Origin: Planctomycetota bacterium
GTDB lineage: Bacteria; Planctomycetota; Planctomycetia; Gemmatales; Gemmataceae
DNA: 37,753 bases
Assembly: GCA_016873095.1 (NCBI GenBank)
Contig: VGYC01000057.1
Coordinates: 1 to 37,753 of the forward strand
Direction: 5' to 3'
Shown here piece by piece: positions 2,794 to 37,555 of the stretch (position 1 is its first letter; each line of letters starts with the position of its first letter). Position numbers and translations under genes: made by a program. The notes beneath the pieces were generated by a model. It searched no databases and had not been told where the DNA came from. It saw nothing but the letters and a program-made list of their open reading frames with translations.

Positions 2794-5700
2794 CTAGAGA
2801 CTCACGCCAGTAACCTTCAGTGCCGGTTTGCGGCGGCGCTTGCGACGCTTGTGAGCACGGGGCATGGCGACGGCGCCGGCAATGGCGGCGGCCATTGCGA
2901 AGCCGCAATCGATGCGTTCGTGCTTGTCGGCCACCAGCCATTCACCGCCGTCCTCGGTATTGAAGATCGGCTCGTCCTGACGGGCCAGCTGGGCGTAAAC
3001 AAAATCGATGGCCCAGTGCGCTGAAGATTCCTGTAGCTGCTCGGACTCCTCGGGCTGGCGATTGTCTTGCTGATCCAGCTGTTCGCCGGCGGGCACGACG
3101 GGCTGCGCCTGAGCGGGCTGCCCGTTGCCGTTCATCACCGGCCACAGCCAGTCGACGCTGAAGTGACGTTGCAGAAACTCGACATCATTCTCGCCACGGA
3201 GGTTGGCGAGGCGTATGTTCGCTTCCTCCCCTTGCTCGGCCGGATTATCGCCAAGATTGCCGGCAGCGGATGCCGTACCGCTCACAGTCAACGTATTCGT
3301 GCTGCTGGATAGCTCGGTGCCCTGCGAGACGCGCAAGACCAGGTTGAGGCGGCTGTTGCTGTTGAATGTGGCAGTGCTCACCGGGAAGGGCACACCCAGC
3401 GGGCTGGCGCTAGCCACGGCCGGCGAGTTGAGCACGTTTGCCGTCGGCGGCGGCGTTGCCGGGGCAGGCACGGCCACCGTGAACACCGTGCCGCCGAGCT
3501 CACTGATTTTCGGCGTGCTGAAATCGTCAATGGTCACGACAAACGTGACCACGTCCTTGCCTGGCTTGTCGCTGCTTGCGACGCGCGTGACGGAAGTCGG
3601 ATGACCGACAATGGCAATCCAGTTCGCGCCGTCGAAGTAGAGCAGTACCGGATCGGGGTCGTCGTGGTCGATCTCGAACTTGAAATTCAGCGTGGCCTGC
3701 GCGCCGGCACCGTCCTGAACGCCGGTTATGCGGACATCGAAAAAAGCCACGGCGGCGGCAGCGTTCTTTTGCCCGGCAATTTGAATGTTCCCGGGCGTGG
3801 AACTGACTGGGTTATCACCGTAGCCGGCAATCCACAAGGTGGCCGGGGTGGAACTGCCGGAGCCTAGGGTGAGCGTGCCCTGGGCAGTCGAACCTTTCTT
3901 TCCCTGGATTTCGCGTGTTTCGGCCGGCGCCCCGTGCGTCGCCGTTTGAGTCTGCGAGTCGCCGATGTTCTCCGGTTTGCCGAGCACTGTGTGCACGACA
4001 ACGGATTGCCAGCCGTCCTCGGAGCCGTCATTGATCGTGACGGTGATGACGAAATCACCCTCGCGGTCAAAGACTCGGGAAATCTGGAACGACTTGTCGT
4101 GGCTCAGGACAAGTGGAATGCTGCCCTTGCCATCCCCGAAATTGACGGATCCCGTCCAGGTTTCCGTTCCCGGATCGACAAAGAAACCAGTGCTTGTGTA
4201 GGTCGCGCCGATGCTCAAGATGGCGTTTGGGCCGAGCGTGACCTTCGGCGCTACGTTGGCCACTGTCAGCGCCAGCTCGCCAAGGGTCGTCGCCGACAAC
4301 GGTGAGAAGGATGGAACCTCTGTGACGGTCTCCGTCCCACCGAATACGCTCGCTGCCAAGAGCGGCGGAACCTCGCCGCCCAGGACGGAGGCGACCCACG
4401 CCCTAAGATCTTGCGGGATTTGTGAGGTCTCGACGGAAAGCGCCGCGACGCTCAATCTTGTTGTTACATTGTTTGGGACGGTGATGGACAGTCCGCGCAG
4501 CTGTTCAGCAGAAAGCAACCATGTGGCGACATCCAGCTGCGTGCCTGCGGATAGGACCGCACCCGGCGGCATGTTGCCAATCACGATGAAAACCGACTCG
4601 TCACTATCCGCCGGATGTGCCTGAATGTTGAGCGCGATGGCCGAGCCTTCCGGGCCGCTGGCGGCAGCGGTCGTGAGCGTCGGCGCCCCGACTTCAGGCA
4701 AGGCGTTTATTGTCAACACTTTCTGAATGGCCTGACCGCTGCTGTCCATTGCCTCGACCACAATGTGGTAGGGGCCATGTCCGTCGTTGAGCTTGGCGTT
4801 GGTCAGCAGCAGGTTGCCCTGTATTGTGAAGAAGTCGTTATCATTAACGCCTTCGCCCTGCACCAAGCTGAAAGAGTGTGCGTCGCCGTGATCCTGATCA
4901 ATGGCGAACAACTCACCGATGACGGTTCCCACTGGACTGTTTTCGCCAACGCTGGCCGCGCTAACACCTATGTCTGTTGGTGCATCGGCGGCATCGGTGA
5001 CCGTGATGTCGAAATCCTTGACCGTCGAAAGGCCGTCTTGGTCCGTGGAAGTGATGCGAATCGTAAAGGTCGACTGCACCTCGAAATCCAGCGGCTTGCT
5101 CGTAACCAGCTGGTTACCCTCAATCGCGAATGCCAGGTGATCGCTACTTCCGTCGATGGGGACGATTTCGTAGAGGAAAACGTTGTCCTGGTCGGGATCA
5201 ACGGTCGAAAGCAAGCCAACTACAGACCCAGCAAGGCTGTTCTCGTTGACCGAGGTCGCATCCAAGCTGATGTCGTAGGGCGCCTCATTCACGTCCGCCA
5301 CGCTGACATCAAAGTCCTTTTCCGTGGACTGGCCATCCTGATCCGTGGAGCGAATCCTGATAGTATGAGTTGATTGCGACTCGAAATCCAAGGGCGCATT
5401 GGTGACCAGCTGGTTTCCCTGAATCGCAAATGCCAGGTGATCGTTGCTGCCATCGATGGGCACGATCTGGTAGACAAAGTTGTCGTCGTTTTGATCGGGA
5501 TCGGTGGTTGACAGGTGGCCAACAACAGAGCCCGGCGGAGAATCTTCAGATATCACGTCGCCGCTGAGAACAATGTCGGTCGGAGGCGCCGGTGGCAACG
5601 CCTCCGTACCGAACAAGTCCAACCCGAGGTAGCTGGCTACACCACTGTCGCCGACGTTGCGAACCCCCGCCTCCAGAGTGTAAGTACCGGTGGTGGCGAA

Positions 5701-6228
5701 AGTAAACTGCCATGAGGTCCAAGACGTGGAGCCGTAGTTGCCGACCTGGGAGACGCTCTTGCTGAAGAGCGTTGCAATGACCGTACTGCCCGACTTGAGG
5801 AGCACTCGGCCGTCATCGTTGTATGGCAAGTAATCGGTTGTGTCGAAAAACGCGTGCCCGCTGACGGTCTGCCCCGCCTGGGCAGTGAAGGTCTGCGACA
5901 CCGAGACGTACTGGTTGACGGTGCCGGACTGCATCAAGGCGAATCGGCTACCTTGCGTCGCGGTGTACAGCTGATCGCCTTGATAGCTGCCAACAGTGGA
6001 AATGTTGCCGCCGCTGGTGGTTTGCGTCCAACCTGCCAGGCCGTTTTCAAATCCAGGATTGAGGAGGCTGACTGGATTGCCTTGGGCTGTGGGGACGACT
6101 CGGGTTTCGAGCAATTCCAGAGAAAGTGTCTGCCGAAGTCTTCTCCGTATGCTTCCTCGGCGCAACGCACGACGACTGGGGCTGTCCCCGCGGAATATGC
6201 GTCCAAATGGTGCGAGCAACAGCAACAT
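2794..6228 (-). CDS. Cadherin/PKD-repeat surface protein
   Basis: A 1,144-residue secreted or surface protein, probably for adhesion or envelope structure. The N-terminus has a basic region and the motif LELLETRVVPT near residue 40, a form of the LExR-type motif common on large planctomycete exported proteins. A beta-sandwich-like region (about 50-205, LLNPGFENGLAGW onward) follows. Three cadherin-like repeats lie at about 216-316, 317-417 and 418-510; the first two are nearly identical and carry DPDQ and STDQDG calcium-site-like motifs. A PKD-like domain is at about 658-750. The C-terminus has an acidic Gln-rich stretch, a short Ala-rich hydrophobic segment (GFAMAAAIAGAVAM) and a very basic tail (KRRKRRRKP). 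The ATG at 6228 was chosen over a TTG one codon upstream; no clear ribosome site is visible. Exact ligand and anchoring are unknown. Confidence 0.85.
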   Translation of the reverse strand: MLLLLAPFGRIFRGDSPSRRALRRGSIRRRLRQTLSLELLETRVVPTAQGNPVSLLNPGFENGLAGWTQTTSGGNISTVGSYQGDQLYTATQGSRFALMQSGTVNQYVSVSQTFTAQAGQTVSGHAFFDTTDYLPYNDDGRVLLKSGSTVIATLFSKSVSQVGNYGSTSWTSWQFTFATTGTYTLEAGVRNVGDSGVASYLGLDLFGTEALPPAPPTDIVLSGDVISEDSPPGSVVGHLSTTDPDQNDDNFVYQIVPIDGSNDHLAFAIQGNQLVTNAPLDFESQSTHTIRIRSTDQDGQSTEKDFDVSVADVNEAPYDISLDATSVNENSLAGSVVGLLSTVDPDQDNVFLYEIVPIDGSSDHLAFAIEGNQLVTSKPLDFEVQSTFTIRITSTDQDGLSTVKDFDITVTDAADAPTDIGVSAASVGENSPVGTVIGELFAIDQDHGDAHSFSLVQGEGVNDNDFFTIQGNLLLTNAKLNDGHGPYHIVVEAMDSSGQAIQKVLTINALPEVGAPTLTTAAASGPEGSAIALNIQAHPADSDESVFIVIGNMPPGAVLSAGTQLDVATWLLSAEQLRGLSITVPNNVTTRLSVAALSVETSQIPQDLRAWVASVLGGEVPPLLAASVFGGTETVTEVPSFSPLSATTLGELALTVANVAPKVTLGPNAILSIGATYTSTGFFVDPGTETWTGSVNFGDGKGSIPLVLSHDKSFQISRVFDREGDFVITVTINDGSEDGWQSVVVHTVLGKPENIGDSQTQTATHGAPAETREIQGKKGSTAQGTLTLGSGSSTPATLWIAGYGDNPVSSTPGNIQIAGQKNAAAAVAFFDVRITGVQDGAGAQATLNFKFEIDHDDPDPVLLYFDGANWIAIVGHPTSVTRVASSDKPGKDVVTFVVTIDDFSTPKISELGGTVFTVAVPAPATPPPTANVLNSPAVASASPLGVPFPVSTATFNSNSRLNLVLRVSQGTELSSSTNTLTVSGTASAAGNLGDNPAEQGEEANIRLANLRGENDVEFLQRHFSVDWLWPVMNGNGQPAQAQPVVPAGEQLDQQDNRQPEESEQLQESSAHWAIDFVYAQLARQDEPIFNTEDGGEWLVADKHERIDCGFAMAAAIAGAVAMPRAHKRRKRRRKPALKVTGVSL
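4981..5586 (-). repeat. Two near-identical cadherin-repeat coding units
   Basis: Two adjacent units of about 300 bases encode the first two cadherin-like repeats. They share long identical stretches at both protein level (for example SDHLAFAI, GNQLVT, STDQDG) and DNA level; compare about 5079-5170 with about 5381-5472. The third repeat (about 4700-4980) is clearly more diverged. This indicates a recent in-frame duplication. Confidence 0.8.
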
Positions 6229-6657
6229 CAACGGCTCGCTTGAACCGGACCAGTAATGGCAAATGCCATCGAGTTCATGCGAATGAGCGTGAGAAACTAG
6301 ACGGACACAGCAGTCACTACCGGGCGCGACGGATTGTTGGAGCAGGTTTCAGGCAAGCTTTCTGGAATCAGCATCGCAGAGCCTGGGCACCTGTCCCTGT
6401 TAATTCCCAAGGGGTAAGTCTGGCGGAAAGGTGCTGTAAAGTCAAACAGATTCTCAGAAAATCGCGATAATCGGCAAATGGCGCCAAGTCTGGCATGATG
6501 TACAGATGCACATTTATGCTGTGCGGCGGCTACGCAAGTTTCCCCGGCCCCTGCGGATTTTTGCTCTCCCCGACAATCGGAAAAGCCGTTATAACCCGCC
6601 CGCGATTTGGTCGATAATGACCGCGGACCCCGCACGAAGGGAACGAAGGAGGAGAGG
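6229..6657. promoter_or_regulatory. Divergent intergenic region
   Basis: About 430 bases separate the minus-strand cadherin gene from the plus-strand foldase gene, so promoters for both should lie here. The only element I can point to is GTTATAAC at 6588-6595, an 8-base palindrome that contains a good -10 hexamer (TATAAC). No convincing -35 element lies at the expected distance. AAGGAGGAGAGG at 6646-6657 is the strong ribosome site for the foldase. No conserved protein reading frame was recognised in the rest. Confidence 0.4.
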
Positions 6658-7605
6658 ATGTCGCGTTCAAGCAGAAACTGGCAATTCCTGGGGAGCCTGG
6701 CAATCCTGGCCATGTTCGCGCTGTCGGCCCCAGCGCAGCAATTCCCGCCCGGCAAGCCGGCCGCCGTCGTCAACGGCGAACCCATTCTCTTCTCGGACCT
6801 CAAGGCGCTCATGGACGATCGGCCGTCGCCGGTGCCGGTACCCAAGCAGCAGGAAGAAGCCATGGCGAAGGCGGCCCTCGAAGTCATCATCGAGGACCAG
6901 ATCATGCGGCAGTTCCTGCGCAAGACCGTCGCCCCGATCCCGGCGGCCGACGTCAACAAGGAACTGGCCAGCCTGGGCGAGGTTCTCAAGAAACAGAACA
7001 AGACCTACGAGCAATTCCTCCGTGAAACCAAGCAGACCGACGAAGTTCTCCGCAAGGACATTGCCTCGCGCTTACAGTGGAAAGCCTTCCTCAAGGCCCG
7101 CATCAACGACAGCATGTGCAAGAAATACTACGACGATAACAAGATCTTCTTCGACAAGGTGACCGTCCGCGCCAGCCATATCCTCGTCAAGCTCAATCCC
7201 AACGCCAGCCAGGCAGAGAAGCAGGGCGCGTACAACAAGATCATGGCGATCCGCCAGGAAATCGTAGCCAAGAAAATCGACTTTGGCGAAGCCGCCAAGA
7301 GGTATTCCGATTGTCCCAGCAAGGACAAGCTGGGGGACATCGGCTACTTCCCATACAAGTTCGTGGTCGTCGAGCCGTTCGCTCGCGCCGCGTTCTCCTT
7401 GCCGTTGCACGAGGTTTCCAACGTGGTTGCCACCGATTTCGGCTACCACCTGATCAAGGTGACCGATCGCACCAAGGGAGAAGCTTCCAATTTCGAGCAG
7501 ATCAAGGAAGGCATCCGCGAAGTCTACGCCCAGGATGTCGATCTGTACTCGAACATCATCAGCGAGCAGCGCAAGACGGCGAAAGTTGAAGTGTACCTGA
7601 AGTAA
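6658..7605 (+). CDS. Secreted parvulin-type peptidyl-prolyl isomerase (copy 1)
   Basis: A 315-residue exported foldase of the SurA/PrsA/PpiC class, which would isomerise X-Pro bonds or chaperone proteins after export. It has a signal peptide (1-27, ending SAPAQQ), a SurA-N-like helical region (about 35-165, beginning VVNGEPI) and one parvulin domain (about 167-271) with ASHILVK including His174, DIGYFPYK and FGYHLIKV including His264. An upstream in-frame ATG at 6607 exists, but the start at 6658 directly follows AAGGAGGAGAGG and begins a normal signal peptide. A paralogue follows after an 80-base gap. A Cys in YSDCPS (219) is conserved in both copies. The parvulin domain is clear; client proteins are unknown but may include the exported proteins encoded next door. 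Confidence 0.9.
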   Translation: MSRSSRNWQFLGSLAILAMFALSAPAQQFPPGKPAAVVNGEPILFSDLKALMDDRPSPVPVPKQQEEAMAKAALEVIIEDQIMRQFLRKTVAPIPAADVNKELASLGEVLKKQNKTYEQFLRETKQTDEVLRKDIASRLQWKAFLKARINDSMCKKYYDDNKIFFDKVTVRASHILVKLNPNASQAEKQGAYNKIMAIRQEIVAKKIDFGEAAKRYSDCPSKDKLGDIGYFPYKFVVVEPFARAAFSLPLHEVSNVVATDFGYHLIKVTDRTKGEASNFEQIKEGIREVYAQDVDLYSNIISEQRKTAKVEVYLK

Positions 7606-7620
7606 GGGGTGGGAATACGT

Positions 7621-7664
7621 GCCGCTGCGGCCTGGGGCCGATTTGGTCCCAGGCCGCGAGCGGC
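7621..7664 (+). promoter_or_regulatory. Strong intercistronic hairpin
   Basis: A long stem-loop between the two foldase genes. Bases 7621-7639 pair with 7645-7664, with one bulged G at 7658 and one G-U pair, around a five-base loop (GATTT). There is no T run after it, so it is not a classical intrinsic terminator. It ends about 10 bases before the AAGGAGG ribosome site (7673-7679) of the second foldase gene. It may stabilise the upstream mRNA 3' end, attenuate transcription, or set the ratio of the two proteins. Confidence 0.65.
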
Positions 7665-7684
7665 ACACAAGCAAGGAGGTGCGG

Positions 7685-8587
7685 ATGTTCGGCTTCAGAA
7701 ATATCATGCGAGCGCTGGGCAGCGTGACCGCGCTGGCCATGCTTGTCGTTGCTTCGACCGCCCAGACGGTAGCGCCGACGCAATCGTCCTCGGTGGCGCC
7801 AACGGCGGACAAGGCAGTCGCCAGCGTCAACGGCGAGACCATCATGGTCTCCGAGGTGCAGAGTGCGATAAACGACGGCGCCCCGAAAGATGAAGCGATC
7901 AAGGAACTGGTTGACGAGATGCTCGTTCGCCAGTTTATCCGCAAGAGCGTGGCCGCTCCCACGGCGACCGACCTGGCCGCCGAGCGCGAAAAGCTGATCA
8001 AGCTTGGTGTCAAGAAGGAAGTCCTGCCGGCGGACAACGTGCTGGCCGCCAAGCTGCAATGGACCGCCTACGTCAAGGCGCGGATCACCGATGACATGTG
8101 CAAGAAGTACTACAGTGACAACAAGGTGTATTTCGACAAGGTGACCGTTCGGGCCAGCCATATCCTGATCAAGGTCAAGTCCGACGCCAGCCAGGCTGAG
8201 AAGCAGGTGGCCTACAACAAGGCAGCCGCCATCCGTCAGCAAATCACCGGCAAGGAGATCGAGTTCGCCGACGCGGCCATGAAGTACTCCGAATGTCCGA
8301 GCAAGGAGCGCGGCGGCGACATCGGCCATTTCGAGTACAAGTTCGCAATGACCGAGCCTTTCTCGCGCGTGGCCTTCGGCATGCAGATCGGCGAGGTTTC
8401 CACCGTTGTGGTCACCGCGGCCGGCTACCACATCATCAAGGTCACCGACCGCTCCAAGGGCGAAGCCTCCGAATTCGCGAAGTGCAAGGAATGGGTCCGC
8501 GAGGCCTATTCCCGCGACGTGGACCTGTACCAGGCCATCGTCAACCACCAGCGGCAGACCGCCCGCATCGACATTCTGATGAAGTAG
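7685..8587 (+). CDS. Secreted parvulin-type peptidyl-prolyl isomerase (copy 2)
   Basis: A 300-residue paralogue of the preceding gene with the same order: signal peptide (about 1-27), a low-complexity Ser/Ala linker, a SurA-N-like helical region starting VASVNGETI, and one parvulin domain (about 152-256) with ASHILIK (His159), DIGHFEYK and AGYHIIKV. Long stretches match copy 1 (for example DKVTVRASHIL, SDASQAEKQ against NASQAEKQ, DRSKGEAS against DRTKGEAS), so the pair arose by tandem duplication. The start at 7685 is set by AAGGAGG at 7673-7679 and gives a clean signal peptide; the longer in-frame form from 7619 would bury it. A terminator-like hairpin follows the stop, closing the foldase unit. 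Its partners and division of labour with copy 1 are unknown. Confidence 0.9.
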   Translation: MFGFRNIMRALGSVTALAMLVVASTAQTVAPTQSSSVAPTADKAVASVNGETIMVSEVQSAINDGAPKDEAIKELVDEMLVRQFIRKSVAAPTATDLAAEREKLIKLGVKKEVLPADNVLAAKLQWTAYVKARITDDMCKKYYSDNKVYFDKVTVRASHILIKVKSDASQAEKQVAYNKAAAIRQQITGKEIEFADAAMKYSECPSKERGGDIGHFEYKFAMTEPFSRVAFGMQIGEVSTVVVTAAGYHIIKVTDRSKGEASEFAKCKEWVREAYSRDVDLYQAIVNHQRQTARIDILMK

Positions 8588-8603: not shown

Positions 8604-8650
8604 CAAAGCCGCGTGTGGCATTAAATTTGGCCAGGCTGCACGCGGCTTTG
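8604..8650 (+). terminator. Terminator-like hairpin after the foldase pair
   Basis: Bases 8604-8615 pair perfectly with 8639-8650 (12 base pairs, CAAAGCCGCGTG-type arm). An inner TGGC/GCCA stem pairs 8616-8619 with 8630-8633. The right arm ends CTTTGCC and is followed by ATTTTCC, so it could work as an intrinsic terminator for the two foldase genes. Confidence 0.7.
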
Positions 8651-8685
8651 CCATTTTCCGCCATCGGGCACTTTCCCCTATCCGT

Positions 8686-8708
8686 CTATAACATGAATAC
8701 TGTTATAG
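8686..8708. promoter_or_regulatory. Perfect palindrome, possible operator
   Basis: The sequence CTATAACA - seven bases - TGTTATAG is a perfect inverted repeat of 8+8 bases. It lies about 50 bases before the start of the first HEAT-propeller gene, downstream of the preceding terminator-like hairpin, and so in the expected promoter/operator position. Each arm includes a -10-like TATAAC, and GTTATAAC also appears upstream of the first foldase gene (6588-6595). It could bind a dimeric regulator; no matching -35 element was found. Confidence 0.5.
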
Positions 8709-8757
8709 TGGGGTTATGGGGCCGTTCGCGGTCCGTCTAACCTGGGGGATTCGTTGC

Positions 8758-10446
8758 ATGAAAGCTGGCATGTGGTTGACGGCGGCTGTTTTCTTTCTGG
8801 CAGGCCAGCGTGCGCAGACCCAGGAAAAGATCGCCGAAAAGGTAGCCGAGAAAGAGCCGGATTCGCTCGCCGATGATCAGAAGGCCCTGCGCGACGTGGG
8901 CGTCAAGACGGACGGACCGTCGCTCCTCGAGTATTTTCGCAAGCGTACCTTCGCCGAGGCGGATCCGGTGAAGGTCAAGAATCTGATCCGGAACCTGGGT
9001 GACGAAGACTTCCAGGTTCGCGAGAAGGCGCATCTGGAGTTGATCAACCTGGGCCCCAGCGCGGTGGCCGGCCTCAAGCAGGCGGAAAACCACGCCGATT
9101 CAGAAACGCGACGCCGCGTCGCCGATCTGAAGAGCGTCATCGAGGCCAAGGCCGATCCCGCCGTGCAGGCCGCCGTCGCGCGCTTGATTGCCCGCATCAA
9201 GCCGGCCGGCAGTCCAGAAGTCATCCTGGCGTACTTGCCGTTCGCGGCCGATTTGACCGTCGTCGATGAGCTGAGCACCACTCTCGGGCAAGTTGCCGGG
9301 GAAGGCGACAAGGTCGATCCGCTTGTTTTGAAAGCAGTCGAGGACAAGCATCCGCTGCGCCGCGCCGCCGCGGGCCAAGCGCTGACCGCCCTCAAGGGCA
9401 GTGCGCATCTGCCGGCGGCCCGCAAGCTTCTCAAGGACAGCGACCCAACCGTGCGGCTACGGCTGAGCATGGCGCTGGTGAAGCGCCGCGAGAAAGAAGC
9501 GCTGCCGGTGCTGATCGATTCGCTTGCCGTCTTACCGCGTGAGCAACTGTGGCCCGCCGAAGAACTTCTGGGCCGACTGGCCGGTGAGAAGGCGCCCGCC
9601 GTCTCACTCGGCACCAGCGAGGTTGACCGCAAGGCCTGCCGTGATGCCTGGGTTAGGTGGCTGGAGACCGAGGGCAGCAAGCTCGATCTCGCCAAGGTCA
9701 ATTTTGCCAATGCCACTCTGGGTTACACCCTGCTGGTGCAGCAGCGCAACAACGGCGGCGGTCAGATTCTGGAACTCGACAAGGCTCGCAAGGTCCGCTG
9801 GAGCTTCGACCTCAACACCTATCCTGTGGACGCCCAGATCATCGGTCCGGACCGTGTCCTGGTGGCCGAGTACCAGGGCGGCCGCGTGTCCATCCGCGAT
9901 TTCAAGGGCAACGCCAAGTGGGAACTGGGCGTCAACGGCAATCCCATCGGCGTGCAGCGTTTGCCCAATGGCAACATCTTCGTCGTCATGCAGAATCGGC
10001 TCACCGAATACGACCCCAAGGGCAAAGAGGTATTCACGTTTCAGGGCCCGCTCATGTTCCGGGCCCGCAAGCTGCCCAACGATGAGATCATCTTCATCAC
10101 CAACGCCGGCCAGCTGGTCCGCATGGAGGCCAAGACGCAAAAACAGATCAAGAACTTCGGCGTCGGCAACCTGGCCAGCCTGTTCGGCAACGTCGACATC
10201 ATGCCCAACGGCAATATCCTCGTGCCGCAATTCCAGAACAATCAAGTGGTCGAGTTCGACAAGGACGGCAAGCAGGTTGGCAACGCCGTCTCGGTGAACT
10301 TTCCCAACTCGGTCGTTCGTCTCTCCAACGGCAACCTGCTGGTGGGCAGCTTGAATAACCGGGCGGTGACCGAGTTCGACCGCAATGGCCGCGTCGTCTG
10401 GAGCCATCAATCGGACGGCATGGTCTTCAACGCGCGACGGCGCTGA
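8758..10446 (+). CDS. Secreted HEAT-repeat/beta-propeller protein (paralogue 1)
   Basis: A 562-residue exported protein of unknown function. After a signal peptide (about 1-20) comes a charged stretch, then an alpha-solenoid of HEAT-type helical repeats (about 75-300; for example DSDPTVRLRLSMALVKRREK). A beta-propeller-like domain fills about 320-562, with recurring LPNGN, MPNGN and LSNGN turns followed by strands and ending in FNARRR. The propeller resembles PQQ/NHL-type repeat domains by eye, but no PQQ ligands or enzyme motif are evident, so a scaffolding or binding role is likely. The start at 8758 was preferred to the in-frame ATG at 8716 because it begins the signal peptide. It is first of three tandem paralogues, with only 39 bases to the next. 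Confidence 0.85.
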   Translation: MKAGMWLTAAVFFLAGQRAQTQEKIAEKVAEKEPDSLADDQKALRDVGVKTDGPSLLEYFRKRTFAEADPVKVKNLIRNLGDEDFQVREKAHLELINLGPSAVAGLKQAENHADSETRRRVADLKSVIEAKADPAVQAAVARLIARIKPAGSPEVILAYLPFAADLTVVDELSTTLGQVAGEGDKVDPLVLKAVEDKHPLRRAAAGQALTALKGSAHLPAARKLLKDSDPTVRLRLSMALVKRREKEALPVLIDSLAVLPREQLWPAEELLGRLAGEKAPAVSLGTSEVDRKACRDAWVRWLETEGSKLDLAKVNFANATLGYTLLVQQRNNGGGQILELDKARKVRWSFDLNTYPVDAQIIGPDRVLVAEYQGGRVSIRDFKGNAKWELGVNGNPIGVQRLPNGNIFVVMQNRLTEYDPKGKEVFTFQGPLMFRARKLPNDEIIFITNAGQLVRMEAKTQKQIKNFGVGNLASLFGNVDIMPNGNILVPQFQNNQVVEFDKDGKQVGNAVSVNFPNSVVRLSNGNLLVGSLNNRAVTEFDRNGRVVWSHQSDGMVFNARRR

Positions 10447-10485
10447 CCGGATCGTTACACATGGCCAGCGATCTGTTATTCGCCA

Positions 10486-12162
10486 ATGAAGTTAACGACT
10501 TCGATTTCCTGGGTTCTTGCCGCCGGCTACGGATTGCTGGTCGCGTCGTTCGCGTGCGCGCAGCCAGGCTCCGATCCGCGCGCCCAGAATGACGAGCGGT
10601 TGCTGCGCGAGAAACAAGTCGGCACCGACGGCCCAGCGCTCATACGTTTTTTCAAGTCGCGCACGCCGACGCCCCAGCAGATCGCCGAGCTTTCCGCCAA
10701 GATCCAGCAACTTGGTGCCAGCTCTTACAATGATCGCCAGCAAGCCAGGGCGGACATCATCAAGGCGGGCGAACTGGCCAAGCCATTGCTCTTTGATGTG
10801 CTGAAAGACCCCAAGGCAAATCTGGAGACCGCACGCCGCGCCGAGTTGTGCCTCAGGCACCTGAACGAGGGCAACGAGGCGGTCCTGGCGGCTGCCGTCG
10901 CGCGAATGCTGGCCCGTGTGAGCCCCATAGGCGCCCACCAGACGCTTATCGACTACTTGCCATTCGCCGACGCTCAGGTCGTTGAGGACATCCAGAGTGC
11001 CCTGGCCACGCTCGGTGCACGAGACCCGGAGCATCGCAAAGTGCTCACGCAAGCTCTGCACGGCGAGCATCCCAATCAGCGCATCGCAGCCGCGGTCGTG
11101 CTCTGCCGACAACGCACGGCCAGGGACCTGGACATCGTCGCGTCCTTGCTCAATGACCCAATTCCCTCCGTGCGATTGCATGTCGCCCTGAAGTTGGTGG
11201 AGGCCAGGGAGAAAAAGGCCATTCCCGTGCTGATCGAATTGCTCGGCAAGTTGCCGCCGGGCAACGCCTGGAAGGCCGAAGAGATGTTGATTCGTCTGGC
11301 CGGCGACAAGGCGTCAACCTTCGCCCAGACGTCGGACCTGCCGCCGGTGAAGCTTCAGCAATCCTGGAGTGATTGGTGGGCCCTCGCCAAGGACAAGATC
11401 GACCTTGCCAAGCTCGACCTGGCGCAATCATATCTGGGGCTGACCTTGATTTCGCAGATGGATCCGCGCGGCACCAACGGCAAGGTCTACGAGTTGAAGC
11501 CCAGCAAGGAAGTTGCCTGGCAGATCGATGGACTCCGCTATCCGCTTGATGCGCAAATTGTCGGCAAGGACCGCGTTCTCGTGGCCGAGTACCTCAATCG
11601 TCGCGTCACGGAGCGTGACCTCAAGGGCGTCATCCATTGGGAAAAGCAAGTGGACATGCCAATTGGCTGTCAACGGCTCAGCAATGGCAACACCTTCATC
11701 GCCACACGGCGGCAACTCTTGGTCGTGGAACCGAGCGGCAAGGAGGCGTTCAATTACGTTCATCAGAACACGAGCATAGCGGCGGCCACGCGGCTGCGCG
11801 ACGGCCGCATGGTCGTTGTCAGCACCGGCGGGCAGCTAACCTGGCTCGACGCCGCCGGCAAGCCGGTCCGTTCTTTCCAGGTCGGTGCGGTGTACACGAT
11901 GGGAGGCAATATCGACGTCTTGCCTGGCGATCGCATCCTCGTACCAGAATTTCGCAGCAACCGCGTCGTTGAATACGATGCCGAGGGCAAGCCGCGCTGG
12001 CAGGTCAGCGCGCAGCGACCGACCTCGGCCGTGCGCCTGCCTAACGGCAACACGCTGGTCGTCAACATGCTTGGCCAGCAGGTCGTGGAATTCAATCGCG
12101 ACGGCCGAGAGGTGTGGAAGCACCAGACGGACGGCCGACCCTGGCGCGCCCGCCGGCGCTAG
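10486..12162 (+). CDS. Secreted HEAT-repeat/beta-propeller protein (paralogue 2)
   Basis: A 558-residue protein with the same build as its neighbours on both sides: signal peptide (about 1-25, ending SFACAQP), the shared block GTDGPALIRFFKSRT, HEAT-type helical repeats (about 70-300, for example NDPIPSVRLHVALKLVEARE) and a C-terminal propeller-like domain with LSNGN and LPNGN turns, ending WRARRR. The copies are diverged throughout, so the duplications are not recent. The gap to the previous stop is 39 bases with no visible promoter, consistent with one transcript. No catalytic motif was recognised. The domain layout is well supported; the function is not known. Confidence 0.85.
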   Translation: MKLTTSISWVLAAGYGLLVASFACAQPGSDPRAQNDERLLREKQVGTDGPALIRFFKSRTPTPQQIAELSAKIQQLGASSYNDRQQARADIIKAGELAKPLLFDVLKDPKANLETARRAELCLRHLNEGNEAVLAAAVARMLARVSPIGAHQTLIDYLPFADAQVVEDIQSALATLGARDPEHRKVLTQALHGEHPNQRIAAAVVLCRQRTARDLDIVASLLNDPIPSVRLHVALKLVEAREKKAIPVLIELLGKLPPGNAWKAEEMLIRLAGDKASTFAQTSDLPPVKLQQSWSDWWALAKDKIDLAKLDLAQSYLGLTLISQMDPRGTNGKVYELKPSKEVAWQIDGLRYPLDAQIVGKDRVLVAEYLNRRVTERDLKGVIHWEKQVDMPIGCQRLSNGNTFIATRRQLLVVEPSGKEAFNYVHQNTSIAAATRLRDGRMVVVSTGGQLTWLDAAGKPVRSFQVGAVYTMGGNIDVLPGDRILVPEFRSNRVVEYDAEGKPRWQVSAQRPTSAVRLPNGNTLVVNMLGQQVVEFNRDGREVWKHQTDGRPWRARRR

Positions 12163-12233
12163 CGTAGGCGATGCTGACAGCGTCGTCTACAAGCTCAAGG
12201 AGTGAGCCGTTGACCCCGGCAAGGAACCCCACG

Positions 12234-13898
12234 ATGCTTCGCATGATTTCACTGGCCATTCTCGTTGGTTGCGTCAGCGTGCTGACCGGTGCCGCCGGCG
12301 GCGACGACAAGGAACGCATTGCTCACGATGAGCAGATTCTCAAGACGGCGAACCTCAAGAGCGATGCCGAATCGCTGGTGTCATTTTTCAAGCGGCGTAC
12401 CCTGCCCGTCGGGCATCAGCACAAGGTCAAGGAATTGATCCGCCAGCTCGGGTCCCAGTCATACCGCGAACGCGAGCAAGCGGCGGCCGAACTGCTCACG
12501 TTCGGTCCCGGAGTCGCGGAGTTGCTGCGTGCCGCCACCACGGACGAGAACCTGGAGATCGCCCGCCGGGCCGAGAAGTGTCTGCAGCGCATCACCGAGG
12601 GCGATCATGCCCGCGAGGTTCCCGCCGCCGCGGCGCGGCTGCTGGCCGCACGCAAGCCGGTCACTGCCATCGCCACGCTGCTGGATTTTCTCCCCTTCGC
12701 GGACAATGACGCCGTCGCTGACGAGGTCCGCAGCGCCCTGGCCGCGCTGGCGCTTCCAGAAGGCAAGCCGGACAAGTTGCTGCAAGCAGCCCTTTCCGAC
12801 AAGACTCCCCTCCGTCGTGCTGCCGCCGCCGAGGCCCTGATCCGCGCTCAGGCCAAGGAGTTGCTGCCCGATATCCGCAAGTTGCTCCGCGATCCGGATC
12901 CAGGGGTCCAGCTGCGCGTCGCCATGACGCTCGCTCATGCAAAGGAGCGCGAGACTGTTCCTGTCTTGATCGATCTGCTGCCGCGACTGCCGCTTGTGGA
13001 CGCCTGGCAGGCGGAGGACATCCTCTTTCGGATTGGTGAGAGCCACCAACCGCCATCGGTGTCGCTGGGCAAGGACGAAGCGTCGCGCAAGAAATGCCGC
13101 GATGCCTGGGCCGCCTGGTGGAAGGAGAATCAGCAGAAGGTCGATCTCGCCAAGCTGCGGGAAACGCCACGGCTGCTCGGTTACACGCTCGTCGTGCTGC
13201 TTGACCAGGGCACGGTCATGGAATTGAACGCCAAGAAAGAACCGCGCTGGCACATCGATAATCTCTCCTTTCCTCTCGACGTGCAGTATCTTCCCGGCGA
13301 CCATGTGCTGGTGACCGAGTATCACGCCAGCCGGGTGAGCGAGCGCGACTTGAAGGGCAAGATCGTCTGGCAAAAGCGCGTCGTTGGGCCGCTCGTCGGT
13401 CAGCGGCTGGCCAACGGCAACACCTTCATTGCCACTGATAGCGTCCTCATGGAAGTGGACGCGAAAGGAAACGAGGTTTCGACCGCGACCATCCCCGGCG
13501 AGCGCATCATGAAGGCGATGAAGCTGCCCAATGGTGAGATCGCCTGCCTTACCACCGAGGCAAAGATGGTCCGCATGGACGCGACCGGCAAGATCCTGTT
13601 CAGCTTTCAAGTGCCGCTGACAACGAAACTGTTCGGTGGCCGCGTGCACATGCTTTCCAATGGTCATGTGCTCGTGCCGCACAACGGCGAGAACAAGGTC
13701 GTCGAGTACGGCGGCAACGGCAAGCCGGTCTGGGAAGTTGCCTGTGATCAGCCCGTCGCTGCCACCCGCCTGCCCAATGGCAATGTGCTCGTCACCAGTA
13801 TGCTTCCCAACCAGGGCGCCATCGAGTACAACCGCGCCGGCAACGCCGTCTGGCAATACCGCTCCAACACCCGTGTCACCCGCGCGCTGCGACGATAG
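12234..13898 (+). CDS. Secreted HEAT-repeat/beta-propeller protein (paralogue 3)
   Basis: A 554-residue protein, third of the tandem set. Signal peptide (MLRMISLAILVGCVSVLTGA), the shared block SDAESLVSFFKRRT, HEAT-type repeats (about 55-285, for example RDPDPGVQLRVAMTLAHAKE) and a propeller-like C-terminal domain with LANGN, LPNGE, LSNGH and LPNGN turns, ending RALRR. The frame is open back to 12171, but the ATG at 12234 begins the signal peptide and follows AAGGAA (12221-12226). The gap to paralogue 2 is 71 bases. All three end in a short basic Arg-rich tail. The set probably forms one operon. Function unknown. Confidence 0.83.
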   Translation: MLRMISLAILVGCVSVLTGAAGGDDKERIAHDEQILKTANLKSDAESLVSFFKRRTLPVGHQHKVKELIRQLGSQSYREREQAAAELLTFGPGVAELLRAATTDENLEIARRAEKCLQRITEGDHAREVPAAAARLLAARKPVTAIATLLDFLPFADNDAVADEVRSALAALALPEGKPDKLLQAALSDKTPLRRAAAAEALIRAQAKELLPDIRKLLRDPDPGVQLRVAMTLAHAKERETVPVLIDLLPRLPLVDAWQAEDILFRIGESHQPPSVSLGKDEASRKKCRDAWAAWWKENQQKVDLAKLRETPRLLGYTLVVLLDQGTVMELNAKKEPRWHIDNLSFPLDVQYLPGDHVLVTEYHASRVSERDLKGKIVWQKRVVGPLVGQRLANGNTFIATDSVLMEVDAKGNEVSTATIPGERIMKAMKLPNGEIACLTTEAKMVRMDATGKILFSFQVPLTTKLFGGRVHMLSNGHVLVPHNGENKVVEYGGNGKPVWEVACDQPVAATRLPNGNVLVTSMLPNQGAIEYNRAGNAVWQYRSNTRVTRALRR

Positions 13899-14337
13899 TA
13901 TTACCAAGGAAAGCGTAGTACAACTTCACGCATGGCTTGATGGGTGTAACGAAGCTCCTGCCCATCAATCGATCCGCGACAAGGCAGTAGCCATCGTTCG
14001 GCGATCTCGCAAGATCACGCGACCGTGACCGCATCATTGCGGCCCGTGTCGCGATCTTGACTCGAATCAATCGGCATTTCTGACGCACCAAGAAAACTCG
14101 GGTGAAGCGTGGCAAACCTTGCCGGACTTGCCGGTGCTGCGCCCATTGCGGCACGGTCAAAGTCTTCGGGCTATTCGGACCATGCGCGGCCTGCCAGACA
14201 TGCCAGGGATGGGTAAAGGGGGGAAGGACTGTTTTCCGCCGGTGTTGCGAACCGAATCGATTGGCAGGGGAAAATGGATGTCCCCGTGGCGGCCGGCGCG
14301 CGGAGCGGGCCTGCCGCATGGCCTGGAGGGGTCGCGG
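13899..14337. other. Intergenic region with hairpins
   Basis: About 440 bases without a convincing gene. TTGATGGG (13937-13944) pairs with CCCATCAA (13961-13968), a possible transcript-end hairpin after the HEAT-propeller genes, but with a 16-base loop and no T run. A small perfect hairpin lies at 14003-14016 (GATCT/AGATC). A Cys-rich reading frame opening at 14102 crosses the right end of the region and is discussed separately. A promoter for the following outer-membrane gene should be here, but I could not pick one out. Confidence 0.4.
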
Positions 14338-15699
14338 ATGCGCTCCACAATCTATTGCCTTGGTTTGGGATTGGCCTGGCTGCTGGCGAATGCCGGTGTC
14401 CGGGGCGACTCACCGTGGGGCACTCCTGTCCAGGCACCTTCCGCTACGTCCGCGTCCGGGGCGACTTTGCCGACGATCGTGCAGCTTGGCCGCCCGGAGC
14501 CGCTTGCCCCCGAAGGCCACACTGTTACTCCCGTGAGCGCCACGGTCGCTTCCCCGAGCCAGCCCATCATCCGCGGCCAGGCGCCCGATGCGCTGCCGCC
14601 CGCGCCACCGCCGCTGCCGCCGCCGGCGCCGCCGCCCAGCGGTGTCGTTGGCGTTCCGGGTGTCACGCCACCCCCGCCCCCGCCGCCGCCCGGTGCTGAT
14701 TTGCCGCTGCTGGCGCCGATTGACAAGGAAGAAGCGTACAACTGCGGCGTGGTCACGCGCGAATCCAGAGCCGGCTTGTTCGGCGGCGCCTGGGACAGAA
14801 CCAAGGAGTTCGTCGGCGGTGCGCCGGGAGCGGTCACCGGCATCTTTCAGCCCGGCCCGGATCGCAAGCTCTTTCAGACGGACCATCGCTTCGATGCCTT
14901 CGCCGCTCCGGTCAGCTTCCCGTTCTACGCCACGCCGCCCCAGGCCACCACGGAAGCAAAGGTGCTGTTTCTTTACGATGACGTTCTGCCGAACCAGCAG
15001 GCGTTCCCCAACGCCGATAACTTCTTTCTGGGAGGCCAGCTTCGCCTTGCCGTTACCGACTGGCTGACCCTGGAAGTCAACAAGCTGGGCGGCATGTGGG
15101 TGCGGCCGCCCGGGGCCGGCACGCGCAGCGGCTTCAGCGAACTCTGGCTCGGACCCAAGTTCACGCTCATCAAGAATGAAAACAGCGGCAGTATTCTGGC
15201 TGCCGGCCTGACCTTCCAGGTCCCGGTCGGCTCCGCCAACATCGTGCAGCACACGGGCAGCCTGTCACTTGCACCTTATGTCAGCTTCGCCCAGAAGTTC
15301 TTCCCGGACTTCAAGTATGGCAGTATCATCCTGTGGAACACCACCGGCTACGCCTTTCGCACCGACAATGTTCGTAGCGAATACCTGTACTCGATGTTCC
15401 ACGTCAACTGGGACATCCTGAACCTGCACATGTTCTACCCCGAGTTTGGCATCGGCTGGAACCTGTACACTCGCAACGGCAATGCCGGCAATCCCGCGCC
15501 CAACAACTTCGAAGGCAACGACTGGTTCAATTTCGGCAATCCATTCGCCGGCCGGAGCAACCTTTCGCTGTCCACTGGACTGCGCTGGAAAATCAACGAA
15601 CACCTGCAAACCGGCTTCGCATTCCAGTTCGGTGTGCTGCGCACTCCCAACAACTGGGAGAACTGGGGTGCGACCGTCGACTTCCGCATTATCTATTAG
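14338..15699 (+). CDS. Outer-membrane beta-barrel protein with proline-rich spacer
   Basis: A 453-residue protein predicted for the outer membrane. The signal peptide is about 1-24. A proline-rich spacer at about 87-119 includes a run of eight prolines. The rest is a set of amphipathic strands typical of a beta-barrel (for example DWLTLEVNKLGGMWVRPP, SGSILAAGLTFQVPVG) and the chain ends in a terminal aromatic residue (FRIIY), as expected of a barrel-assembly signal. The frame is open from 14119, but the ATG at 14338 gives the signal peptide and follows GGAGGGG near 14325. The Pro-rich part may span periplasm or peptidoglycan. It resembles planctomycete barrel proteins of unknown function; I cannot tell whether it is a transporter or a structural porin. 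It converges on the FkbM gene, 10 bases away. Confidence 0.75.
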   Translation: MRSTIYCLGLGLAWLLANAGVRGDSPWGTPVQAPSATSASGATLPTIVQLGRPEPLAPEGHTVTPVSATVASPSQPIIRGQAPDALPPAPPPLPPPAPPPSGVVGVPGVTPPPPPPPPGADLPLLAPIDKEEAYNCGVVTRESRAGLFGGAWDRTKEFVGGAPGAVTGIFQPGPDRKLFQTDHRFDAFAAPVSFPFYATPPQATTEAKVLFLYDDVLPNQQAFPNADNFFLGGQLRLAVTDWLTLEVNKLGGMWVRPPGAGTRSGFSELWLGPKFTLIKNENSGSILAAGLTFQVPVGSANIVQHTGSLSLAPYVSFAQKFFPDFKYGSIILWNTTGYAFRTDNVRSEYLYSMFHVNWDILNLHMFYPEFGIGWNLYTRNGNAGNPAPNNFEGNDWFNFGNPFAGRSNLSLSTGLRWKINEHLQTGFAFQFGVLRTPNNWENWGATVDFRIIY

Positions 15700-17041: not shown

Positions 17042-17161
17042 GCAGCCCGCAACGACGCTTCGTCGCGGAACCATCACCCACCGCCGTCCATATAAGACCG
17101 CCAGACAGACAAGCCACGCGAAACGCCGGCGATGCCCCGAGTCCTGCTTCCGGGAGCGACC

Positions 17162-18514
17162 ATGCTGAACCTGCTCGGCCGCCAGTTCAAACTCTGCGAT
17201 GGCGTGTCGCGCCGCGGCTTCTTGCGAATCGGTGGACTGGGACTGGCAGGTTTGACCTTGCCCGCTGTTCTGCGGATGCGAGAAGCTCAGGCATCGAACC
17301 GGCGGCGCGACAGCGCCGTCATCCTTTACTGGATGGCCGGCGGCCCCTCGCACATCGACACCTACGACATGAAACCGAACGCACCGGCGGAAGTTCGCGG
17401 CCCATTCCGCGCTTCGCCGACGCGGGTCTCAGGGCTATCGCTCTGCGAACTCTTGCCCGGACATATCCGGATCGCCGACAAGCTCGCGATCGTCCGCTCG
17501 TTGCACCATGGCAACGCCAACCATTTCGACGCTTCGCACTGGGCGCAGACCGGATACCACGTGCCGAACATCATGGGCCGTGGCCAGCCTTACCCCGCTC
17601 AGGGCGCTGTCGTTTCCCGATTGCGCGGCGCCAATCGGCCCGACATGCCGCCGTACGTTTGCCTGCCGGAAGGTTACAGTCCAAACCTTGGCTTCTACCA
17701 GCAAGCTGCCTACCTTGGGGCGGAGCACAACCCCATCGATGGCGGTGGCGAGCCAGGCTACCGGGGACGCATCTTGCAGCCGACGTTCTTGCCGCCGCGT
17801 GAGTTGTCGTTGCCGAGGGTTGCCGACCGCCGCGAACTGCTGCGCCGCATCGATGTCCTGACGCGCCGCGTCGAGTCCAGCGGCGAGTTTCGCGCCATGG
17901 ACAGCAGCTACCAGCGTGCCTTCGGCCTGATCACGAGTCAGCGTGCCAAAGATGCCTTCGACCTATCTCGCGAGCCGTTGACCTTGCGTGAGCGCTACGG
18001 CACGCATGCCTGGGGCAAGGCGGCCCTGCTGGCCCGTCGTCTCGTGGAAGCCGGTGTCACCTTCGTGACCATCAACCACTACGAGGCCGACATCGACTGG
18101 TGGGACGACCATTACACCATCGAGCGGAATCTGCGCCGCCGCTTGCCACTATTCGATCAGGCGCTGTCGTCGCTAGTCGAAGACCTGCACGTGCGCGGCC
18201 TTGGCGACCGCGTCCTCGTCGTGGCGTGCGGCGAGTTTGGCCGATCGCCGCGTATCGACAGTCTTGCCGGTCGTGGACACTGGAATCGTGCTTACAGCGC
18301 GCTGCTGGCCGGCGGCGGCATCCGGGCCGGCCAGGTCGTCGGCGCCACTTCGGCCGACGGCGGCGTGCCCAGCGACCGGCCCCTTCTCCCCGGAGACCTG
18401 CTCGCCACCATCTACCGCGTCCTCGGCATCGACCACGATTCGATGCTGCCAGATCGGCAGAACCGCCCGATCCGTCTCTGCGACCCGGGCCAGCCTATCG
18501 CCGAGCTTTTCTGA
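17162..18514 (+). CDS. DUF1501 exported protein (Tat signal)
   Basis: A 450-residue protein of the DUF1501 family, which is distantly related to alkaline phosphatases and sulfatases and is greatly expanded in Planctomycetes. The N-terminus has a twin-arginine signal (SRRGFLRIGGLGLAGL), so a folded, possibly metal-bearing protein is exported. Family motifs include WMAGGPSHIDTYDMKP, GEFGRSPRI, GRGHWNRAYSALLAGGGI and a C-terminal GDLLATIYRVLGID. The ATG at 17162 is preferred over one at 17132 because it opens directly into the Tat signal. Family members are often paired with DUF1549/DUF1553 proteins; one lies in this window but 16 kb away. The reaction is not established. Confidence 0.9.
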   Translation: MLNLLGRQFKLCDGVSRRGFLRIGGLGLAGLTLPAVLRMREAQASNRRRDSAVILYWMAGGPSHIDTYDMKPNAPAEVRGPFRASPTRVSGLSLCELLPGHIRIADKLAIVRSLHHGNANHFDASHWAQTGYHVPNIMGRGQPYPAQGAVVSRLRGANRPDMPPYVCLPEGYSPNLGFYQQAAYLGAEHNPIDGGGEPGYRGRILQPTFLPPRELSLPRVADRRELLRRIDVLTRRVESSGEFRAMDSSYQRAFGLITSQRAKDAFDLSREPLTLRERYGTHAWGKAALLARRLVEAGVTFVTINHYEADIDWWDDHYTIERNLRRRLPLFDQALSSLVEDLHVRGLGDRVLVVACGEFGRSPRIDSLAGRGHWNRAYSALLAGGGIRAGQVVGATSADGGVPSDRPLLPGDLLATIYRVLGIDHDSMLPDRQNRPIRLCDPGQPIAELF

Positions 18515-19091: not shown

Positions 19092-20519
19092 TCACGTCAA
19101 GATGTCGCGGATCACCTCGCCATGAACATTGGTGAGCCGGCGGCGAATGCCGTTGTGGTAGAACGTCAGCCGCTCATGATCTACGCCCAGGAGATGCAAG
19201 ACCGTGGCATGGAAATCAGGCCAGGTGACGATGTTTTCGACCGCTCGATGGCCGATTTCGTCGGTGCTACCGTATGTCATACCGGGTCGCAGTCCCGCGC
19301 CAGCGAGCCAGACGGAAAAGCCGCTCTGGTTATGGTCGCGACCCAGTCCGACCACGTTGGCGGCGGATTGCGTGAAGGGGGTGCGGCCAAACTCTGTCGT
19401 GAACAGCACCAGCGTGTCGTCGAGCATGCCGCGGCGGCGCAGGTCGCGCAACAGGCCGGCCACTGGCTGGTCGATACGGGCCGCCTCCTGCCCGTGGTTT
19501 TGCCGCACGTTTTCGTGCCCGTCCCAGTTGATGCGCGGGTTGCCGAACGATCCGCCGGAGAAGAGTTGCACGAAGCGCACGCCTCTCTCGATGAGCCGCC
19601 GCGCCAGCAAGCATGCTCGCCCGAAGTCCGCCGTCTGGGGCCGATGCAGGCCGTAGAGATCCTGGGTTGCTAGCGTTTCACGCTCGAGGTTGGCCACTTC
19701 CGGAATGGCCAGTTGCATGCGTGCTGCCATCTCGTAGCTGCGAATCCGGGCAGACAGGGCATCGTCACTGGAACGTTCCGCGAGGTGCCGCCGATTCATG
19801 CGCGACAGCAACTCCCGAGTCGCCTGGTCCGCGTTCGGGCCGAGGTCGCGGGCCGGCATGAGGTCGTCGAGCGGCGCGCCGCGGCCGCGTATGGCCACGC
19901 CCTGGTGACGCGCCGGTAGAAAGCCGTTGCTCCAGTTGATTGTTCCGCCCGCCGGCAAGCCGCGCGCGTCCGGGATGACAACGAACGCCGGCAAGTTGTC
20001 CGTCTCGCAGCCCAGTCCGTAGGAAAGCCACGAGCCCAGGACCGGAAAACCGTTCAAGCGGAAGCCGCTATTCTCTTGAAACGTCGCCGGCGTGTGGTTG
20101 GACGTATCAGCCACCATCGAGTTGATGATCGTTAGCTGATCGGCGACCGCGCCGATATGCGGAAACAGCTCGGACACCCAGATCCCGCTGCGGCCGCGCT
20201 GCCCGAATCGCCAGTCACTCTGCCGCAAGAGTCCGACCTGGCCGAAAAACACGTCCGGGCGCTCGCTGCCGACCAGTGAGCGGCCGTGCAGTCGTTCCAG
20301 CGCCGGTTTGTAGTCGAAGGAATCGACCTGACTTAACCCGCCGCACAAGCAGATGTGGATGGCACGCCGTGCCCGCACGGGATGATGCGGCGGCGGATCG
20401 CCCGAGTCGCCGGGTACTACTGCGGCGTGCAGATGCTGATCGCGTGCCAGCAACTCCGCCAGGGCCGCCCCACCCAGCCCGCAACTCATCCACGACAAGA
20501 AACCGCGACGATCCAGCAT
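19092..20519 (-). CDS. DUF1501 exported protein (second copy, long form)
   Basis: A 475-residue DUF1501 protein. The N-terminus MLDRRGFLSWMSCGLGGAAL is a Tat-like signal with the twin arginine. Motifs include CLCGGLSQVDSFDYKP, NWDGHENVRQNH, TTEFGRTPF, GRDHNQSGFSVWLAGAG, YGSTDEIGH and DFHATVLHLLGVDHERL, so the putative metal-site residues of the family appear complete. The frame is open to 20744, but the ATG at 20519 has GGAG seven bases upstream and gives the family N-terminus; 20525 is a close alternative. It is only distantly similar to the other DUF1501 protein here, so this is not a local duplication. The gap to the divergent DUF3500 gene is 200 bases. Enzymatic activity is unproven for the family. 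Confidence 0.9.
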   Translation of the reverse strand: MLDRRGFLSWMSCGLGGAALAELLARDQHLHAAVVPGDSGDPPPHHPVRARRAIHICLCGGLSQVDSFDYKPALERLHGRSLVGSERPDVFFGQVGLLRQSDWRFGQRGRSGIWVSELFPHIGAVADQLTIINSMVADTSNHTPATFQENSGFRLNGFPVLGSWLSYGLGCETDNLPAFVVIPDARGLPAGGTINWSNGFLPARHQGVAIRGRGAPLDDLMPARDLGPNADQATRELLSRMNRRHLAERSSDDALSARIRSYEMAARMQLAIPEVANLERETLATQDLYGLHRPQTADFGRACLLARRLIERGVRFVQLFSGGSFGNPRINWDGHENVRQNHGQEAARIDQPVAGLLRDLRRRGMLDDTLVLFTTEFGRTPFTQSAANVVGLGRDHNQSGFSVWLAGAGLRPGMTYGSTDEIGHRAVENIVTWPDFHATVLHLLGVDHERLTFYHNGIRRRLTNVHGEVIRDILT

Positions 20520-20719
20520 GGCCATGCTCCGCTGGCATGAAGTGGTCAAGGCGCCCAGGACAATTCTAGCAGATGCTGCCTGCAGGCCGAGGGCCAAACA
20601 ACCCCAACTCTCGCCCGAGTCAAGAAAACGGCAAGTGCAATCTGGCCAAGCAACGGCCACTCCCATAAGGCGAATGACAACTGCGTTAACGAGTCGACAC
20701 TTCAAATGAAAGGGCCGCC

Positions 20720-37337: not shown

Positions 37338-37555
37338 GGTCATTTCCTCTTGCGAGCGTGGAGGTTTCAACCGGCAGGAAAGCAGGCGGGAACACAAGGC
37401 AAGGACGATAATAGTAGTGTACCGGGTTTCGGCGGCAAATGGAAAGCAAAATTTTCCGAAGAAGCTTAAAATAGTTGTAACAACCAGGGACGGATTGCTC
37501 CGGATAATCGTCTAGCGTCCTTGATCCCCAGAAGTTATCTCGTTTGAGTCAAGTT

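Follow-up and report, generated by a model that had tools for sequence, protein, structure and literature searches.

A tandem array of predicted exported HEAT solenoid-propeller paralogues with position-specific conservation in the Gemmataceae

The described proteins closest to the genes considered here are propeller proteins. The propeller of BamB has eight blades, while ASST acts through a histidine and is not known to carry a solenoid. Tuwongella immobilis, a member of the Gemmataceae, has 28 genes annotated bamB (PMC8567305); the membrane-coat proteins of the Planctomycetes-Verrucomicrobia-Chlamydiae (PVC) group have an N-terminal propeller, a C-terminal solenoid and a length of 1039-1287 aa (Table 2, PMC2799638); and a cluster of C-terminal beta-propeller proteins is placed in the pore-bearing membranes of Gemmata obscuriglobus (PMC5287468). 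Here, we analyze three consecutive genes, copies 1, 2 and 3 (alpha, beta and gamma), in a 37,753-nucleotide stretch from a Planctomycetota bacterium of the family Gemmataceae (assembly GCA_016873095.1, contig VGYC01000057.1, positions 1 to 37,753), hereafter the window. Their products resemble the BamB/PQQ_2 proteins in propeller sequence family, in their many paralogues in the Gemmataceae and in envelope context, but differ from BamB in carrying a HEAT solenoid at the N-terminus, in their six modeled blades and in an equivalog score below cut-off. They share LPNGN-type blade repeats and a six-bladed core, aligned at Z ~20, with ASST (PF14269/PF05935), but their family has no conserved catalytic histidine. 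Compared by published description, they recall the PVC coat-like proteins (Santarella-Mellwig 2010, PMC2799638) in combining a propeller with a helical solenoid, in occurring in Planctomycetes and in being several per genome, but are set apart by the opposite domain order and a size of half or less; they recall the G. obscuriglobus cluster (PMC5287468) in the C-terminal propeller, the paralogues and the related genus.

Each of the three open reading frames has a single terminal stop, and the gaps between them are 39 bases (copies 1 and 2) and 71 bases (copies 2 and 3). Given these short gaps, it is plausible that the three copies are co-transcribed as one operon. Over the full length, identity to copy 1 is 39% for copy 2 and 40% for copy 3, and with copy 2 as query, copy 1 was retrieved at E 1.2e-105 and copy 3 at E 2.8e-112. 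Such values rule out chance or artefact as the source of the likeness, and the reading frames, identities and E-values thus bear out the three tandem paralogues, with their lengths and spacings, that an earlier sequence-only reading had described. Each copy has, by eye, a hydrophobic leader, from which we infer that the proteins are exported. The leader of the window's copy 3 contains LVGC (also by eye), and no cysteine is common to the copy 3 orthologues. The short block previously given as FFK.RT is found in copies 2 (FFKSRT) and 3 (FFKRRT), while copy 1 reads YFRKRT.

We then consider the fold. The Pfam family HEAT_2 (PF13646) exceeded its cut-off of 27.7 bits in all three copies (50.3, 33.9 and 53 bits), and the propeller matches above cut-off were Arylsulfotran_2 in copies 1 and 3 and PQQ_2 in copies 2 and 3. 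Among 80 family members, HEAT_2 was matched in 80, PQQ_2 in 69 and Arylsulfotran_2 in 62. An AlphaFold2 model of the mature part of copy 3, made from an alignment of 80 sequences, reached a mean predicted local distance difference test score (pLDDT) of 95.3 and a predicted TM-score (pTM) of 0.86, with helices over residues 2-274 followed by 23 strands of at least three residues each over residues 293-528. In structural alignments (VIA-align), whose rows cover the propeller part only, this propeller aligned over 230-240 residues to six-bladed chains at Z 20-25. The best match was BACCAC_01654 (3no2; Z 24.6, root-mean-square deviation 2.6), a Bacteroides protein of unknown function that is a propeller alone, and the next was LRP6; ASST and the sulfotransferase Cpz4 aligned at Z 20-22, and the ASST H436N active-site entry was also among the matches. 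Counting from the repeats and the modeled strands, whose number is close to the ~24 of six four-stranded blades, the propeller is predicted to have six blades, and alignment indicates that copies 1 and 2 probably share the solenoid-propeller fold. Hence the solenoid plus propeller build proposed from the letters was supported by Pfam, by the copy 3 model and by the propeller matches; the structure prediction suggested as a check, run on copy 3, gave both folds.

The model also bears on the C-terminus. The blades repeat in the register P..A.R(LPNGN), and the end R-V-T-R-A-L-R-R lines up with P-V-A-A-T-R-L-P-N-G-N of blade 6, which suggests that the basic C-terminal strand provides blade 1 with the strand that it lacks and would close the propeller. 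The basic, Arg-rich end noted earlier does exist, with RR terminating 78 of 138 family members, but in the copy 3 model it is the last propeller strand and no separate feature; for the same reason, a role of the basic tail as a sorting signal was rejected. Across the 138 members, the highest histidine column reaches 25% and no polar active-site pattern stands out. Catalysis is therefore unlikely, in agreement with the earlier remark that no catalytic motif is visible.

Next, we analyzed the distribution of the family, scoring the best 34, 15 or 10 candidates for the per-genome match counts. In a first sample (E<=1e-20), matches occurred in 25 of 41 genomes, namely 25/25 of the window's family and 0/16 outside it. 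A broader profile (E<=1e-80) recovered the fused architecture in 90/95 Gemmataceae genomes and 39/39 genera. In a class-wide sample of 148 genomes (1e-30), 42 matched, comprising 32 of the 33 Gemmataceae genomes shown and 10 outside the family. Since these 10 outside matches are all partial (HEAT only, propeller only, or longer partial stretches, the longest running in G118 from 6 to 373 and in G142 from 8 to 354 of the 524 profile positions), the full solenoid-propeller fusion looks specific to the Gemmataceae, with distant partial kin elsewhere; propeller-only relatives are found in other phyla (loci L145 on). The source genome has a fourth match (G000:C336:3398-3922), confined to a HEAT module within a frame of 444 residues.

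Dereplication reduced 177 members to 138, and a tree of these, of a quick kind without bootstrap and with 48/135 inner branches open and two long rows, contained three supported clades, one per array position. The order 1-2-3 was present in 8/95 genomes from 3 genera (the window, L091, L094, L099, L103, L110, L111 and L095, whose array is nearly identical to that of L111), and among the seven distinct arrays the best match was the same-position copy in 125/126 comparisons. Identities between the window and its orthologues were 50-57% for alpha and 48-60% for gamma, above the 30-40% between copies within one genome; for beta (36-47%) the excess is less clear. A second array type, long1-long2-gamma-delta, was complete in L035, L036, L117, L123, L130 and L131, and long1-long2-gamma was found in L105 and L115; the long1 and long2 forms carry two HEAT modules, and gamma is common to both array types. 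The three position clades and the same-position best matches suggest, at the level of sequence, that the copies are old and have three distinct kept roles, as had been supposed from their divergence. No conserved wider neighborhood was found: the peptidyl-prolyl isomerase (PPIase) genes described below aside, neighbors recur only within genera or in a few genomes.

The arrays also share an upstream motif. CGTCTA was first noticed on reading through the gaps, where it stood ahead of every array, and was then counted in a segment reaching 200 nt upstream and 60 nt downstream of each called start; 37 near-duplicate loci and genes with <240 nt upstream were dropped beforehand, and gene calls, for these counts as for the locus maps, came from a simple script with approximate starts. 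The motif was present in 18/33 array-first genes (L124, whose contig begins within the array, being scored as lacking it), versus 15/417 other first genes and 8/221 other inner genes, and in 5/53 single members, 2/68 inner members and 0/11 PPIases. When the 33 stretches were replaced by first-order Markov copies, the mean count was 1.27 and the maximum 5 over 500 runs. The motif occurs in 11/15 genera with arrays, and the Fisher value for the excess, 1e-14, is not a probability, as related loci are included, five of them from one genus. Aligned flanks (18 rows, the window being represented by its second CGTCTA, at 8734) showed a T before, a strong CGTCTA, a T at +9 and a weak TTG near -23. ECF (extracytoplasmic function) promoters have a -10 CGTC. 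By analogy with their geometry, the motif may mark an ECF-type promoter; published ECF -35 boxes are GGAACTT and ATTGAAACCTTT (PMC8103513). A sigma-70 scan of the gap between the PPIase genes and the array in the window returned zero sites. One of the two inner-member matches is the window's own, at 12184-12189 (+); lying 50 nt ahead of copy 3, it may mark an internal start or be there by chance.

Directly upstream of copy 1 lie two tandem PpiC/parvulin-type PPIase genes whose products are 51% identical. Thus, the range 8758-13898 delimited by the sequence-only reading holds the three genes, but the wider unit includes the PPIase genes (6658-8587) and the upstream motif at 8683, both of which that reading had missed. 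SurA_N_3 was matched in PPIase 1 and was below cut-off in PPIase 2. A model of PPIase 1 (9 sequences; pLDDT 80.9) had SurA and PrsA chains as its best Foldseek matches, at TM-scores of 0.3-0.5. Both proteins fit the SurA/PrsA-type build of an N-terminal helical chaperone domain plus a parvulin domain; neither reached the NCBIfam equivalogs for SurA (60 and 39.6 vs a cut-off of 394) or PrsA (65.5 and 50.1 vs 361). The source genome has three members of this PPIase family, two of them in the window, and 92/95 Gemmataceae genomes have one or two (1e-30). A PPIase is next upstream of the array on the same strand in at least 10/95 genomes from six genera (G000, G018, G043, G068, G069, G070, G083, G100, G101 and G103), a lower bound judged among the matches listed; G099, G102 and G104, with PPIase and array on different contigs, are outside this count. 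Array-linked genes occupy five separate positions in the PPIase tree, interspersed with unlinked ones (those without a family member within ~1.5 kb), so linkage has been lost or gained several times. What we take to be the first catalytic histidine of the parvulin domain is lost in 6/10 distinct array-linked PPIases versus 1/29 unlinked ones (L213, from a genus whose linked PPIases also lack it). The six linked PPIases without it (L201-L206) belong to two lineages, and both PPIases of the window retain it. It is possible that the histidine-less linked proteins are chaperone-only forms. Separately, an oxidoreductase that by eye has a Gfo/Idh/MocA look lies divergent from several PPIases, linked and unlinked (L123, 363-1751; flanks of L175, L184 and L185), and is maybe the PPIase's older neighbor.

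In the ten loci mapped, the gaps between PPIase and array measure 128-239 nt, and perfect inverted repeats of at least 7 bases, some of them weak, occur in 8/10 (not L117 and L130). Shuffling was applied to the window's hairpin only: its folding energy (dG) is -27.9, versus -14.9 +- 3.0 over 300 base shuffles, 0/300 of which were as low. A first hairpin scan had missed it because its loop was too long for the scan. Owing to this strong hairpin, the PPIases and the array are probably transcribed separately; the hairpin and the gap lengths likewise disfavor a single five-gene operon.

Our preferred reading, which we hold tentatively, is that alpha, beta and gamma are ancient, functionally separated, non-catalytic envelope scaffold or binding paralogues, co-made from one promoter. 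In this model, an exported Gemmataceae family would consist of a HEAT solenoid of ~270 residues followed by a six-bladed propeller, each of which would offer a surface for binding proteins or ligands, at the envelope or in the periplasm. The three products would be made together from one promoter and, given their position-specific conservation and the anchoring of two array types by gamma, may act as non-interchangeable partners, for instance as subunits of one hetero-oligomer, a joint complex being the simplest reason for the fixed positions. The neighboring SurA/PrsA-like chaperone would probably help to fold or place the array products; we infer both this partnership and the binding role.

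Several observations weigh against this reading. Alpha, beta and gamma are joined in only 8/95 genomes; the earlier claim that the three genes are kept together holds for these, but elsewhere they are split, lost or replaced, as in G020, where alpha and gamma are on different contigs with no beta among the matches listed, and in G072, where beta-gamma lies apart from alpha. In the genus with most members (g16), most genomes have one match among the matches listed, and a lone copy can therefore suffice. Beta evolves fast, the window's copy being 40% identical to its orthologues on average. Only a minority of genomes link the PPIase to the array, elsewhere it is accompanied by neighbors of its own, and in the window the terminator-like hairpin separates PPIase from array. 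The motif was picked after being seen, in related loci that are not independent.

Quite possibly, and as the strongest alternative, the array instead encodes three exported binding proteins that work independently and form no complex, products of duplication that each recognize a ligand of their own (glycan, peptide or cofactor), their co-location reflecting co-regulation only. Single-copy and scattered members in many genomes, the divergence of the copies to 30-40% identity within a genome, and similar six-bladed propellers that bind peptides, RNA or small molecules (LRP6, Brat and BtuG-type structure matches) all fit this view; however, the orders 1-2-3 and long1-long2-gamma-delta are each kept across genera, which exceeds what co-regulation needs. 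It is unlikely that the genes form an accessory set of BamB type that serves outer-membrane protein assembly together with the adjoining SurA-like PPIases: the six blades in the model contrast with the eight of BamB, and the BamB equivalog (TIGR03300, cut-off 285.2) scored only 20.8 in copy 2 and 16 in copy 3, with zero match in copy 1. Moreover, bamA was not seen beside the mapped arrays, where most neighbors' names were not searched. In favor of such a set are the PQQ_2/BamB Pfam matches, the top Foldseek matches of PPIase 1, which are SurA chains, several of them in BAM complexes, and the bamB-annotated genes that PMC8567305 gives for T. immobilis.

We consider it very unlikely that the proteins are periplasmic coat-protein analogues, whose solenoid-propeller units would polymerize on a membrane in the way suggested for the membrane-coat proteins of the PVC group. 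The two fold types are the same, the phylum has invaginated membranes, there are several paralogues per genome, and PMC5287468 describes its pore-membrane propeller cluster in G. obscuriglobus, but the coat proteins of PMC2799638 have the reversed order and 1039-1287 aa against ~560 aa here. Finally, an arylsulfotransferase-like or other propeller enzyme is scarcely credible and was rejected for want of a conserved histidine column (25% of the 138 members at most), the Arylsulfotran_2 matches of copies 1 and 3 and the Z 20-22 alignments to ASST and Cpz4 notwithstanding, as the best-matching stretches correspond to short segments of the Pfam models.

Table 1 Coordinates of the array, its predicted domains and the upstream features in the window.
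Feature	Position	Strand	Remarks
PPIase 1, PpiC/parvulin-type, SurA/PrsA-like	6658..7605	+	315 aa from ATG 6658, GGAGG upstream; Pfam Rotamase 84.4 bits
PPIase 2, PpiC/parvulin-type	7685..8587	+	ATG 7685 after AAGGAG (GTG 7679 possible); Rotamase 91.7 bits
Terminator-like hairpin in the gap from PPIase 2 to copy 1	8604..8650	+	12-base perfect arms, loop 23
CGTCTA motif, promoter-like	8683..8688	+	common to first genes of arrays; second copy 8734-8739
Palindrome CTATAACA-n7-TGTTATAG	8686..8708	.	putative operator-like; overlaps CGTCTA motif
Copy 1 (alpha)	8758..10446	+	562 aa, HEAT solenoid + propeller; clade of 9 rows, SH-aLRT 100
Copy 2 (beta)	10486..12162	+	558 aa; clade of 8 rows, SH-aLRT 100
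Copy 3 (gamma)	12234..13898	+	554 aa; clade of 32 rows, SH-aLRT 98
Copy 3 HEAT solenoid (predicted)	12312..13130	+	model residues 2-274; HEAT_2
Copy 3 six-bladed propeller (predicted)	13176..13895	+	model residues 290-529; alignment to 3no2 spans 235 residues
Copy 3 last strand (VTRALR region; predicted)	13875..13892	+	model strand 523-528; read as closing blade 1

Other genes of the window were also noted. Divergent from the PPIase genes, 2794-6231 (-) encodes a 1145-residue protein with cadherin and PKD-type domains. The next gene downstream of the array, 14119-15699 (+), has a proline-rich N-terminal part and by eye is possibly an outer-membrane barrel; its product had zero Pfam or NCBIfam matches. 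Two DUF1501 proteins are encoded at 17132-18514 (+) and 19092-20744 (-), and members of the DUF1501 blast-cluster lie near arrays in some other genomes, probably owing to the large size of that family. A DUF1549/DUF1553 protein with a C-terminal PDZ domain is encoded at 34575-37397 (-).

The propeller ('bamB') expansion in the Gemmataceae is already in print, so that the new elements here are the fused architecture, the sets of position-specific copies, the link to PPIase genes and the upstream motif; in open-licence PubMed Central literature, supplementary files excluded, no report of this family or gene order was found. A more ambitious version of our preferred reading, which we regard as improbable, is that alpha, beta and gamma (or long1, long2, gamma and delta) form a hetero-oligomer specific to the Gemmataceae, a periplasmic lattice or ring, under one ECF-type envelope regulator acting via CGTCTA and with dedicated SurA-like chaperones, some of which, in two lineages, lack the isomerase histidine. 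If true, such an assembly would amount to a coat-like scaffold in bacteria with the domain order turned round. How membranes are organized in Planctomycetes is a debate in which solenoid-plus-propeller proteins figure centrally, and a near-universal Gemmataceae family with ordered orthologous subunits, a chaperone neighbor and a shared motif provides a concrete gene set and a regulon handle.

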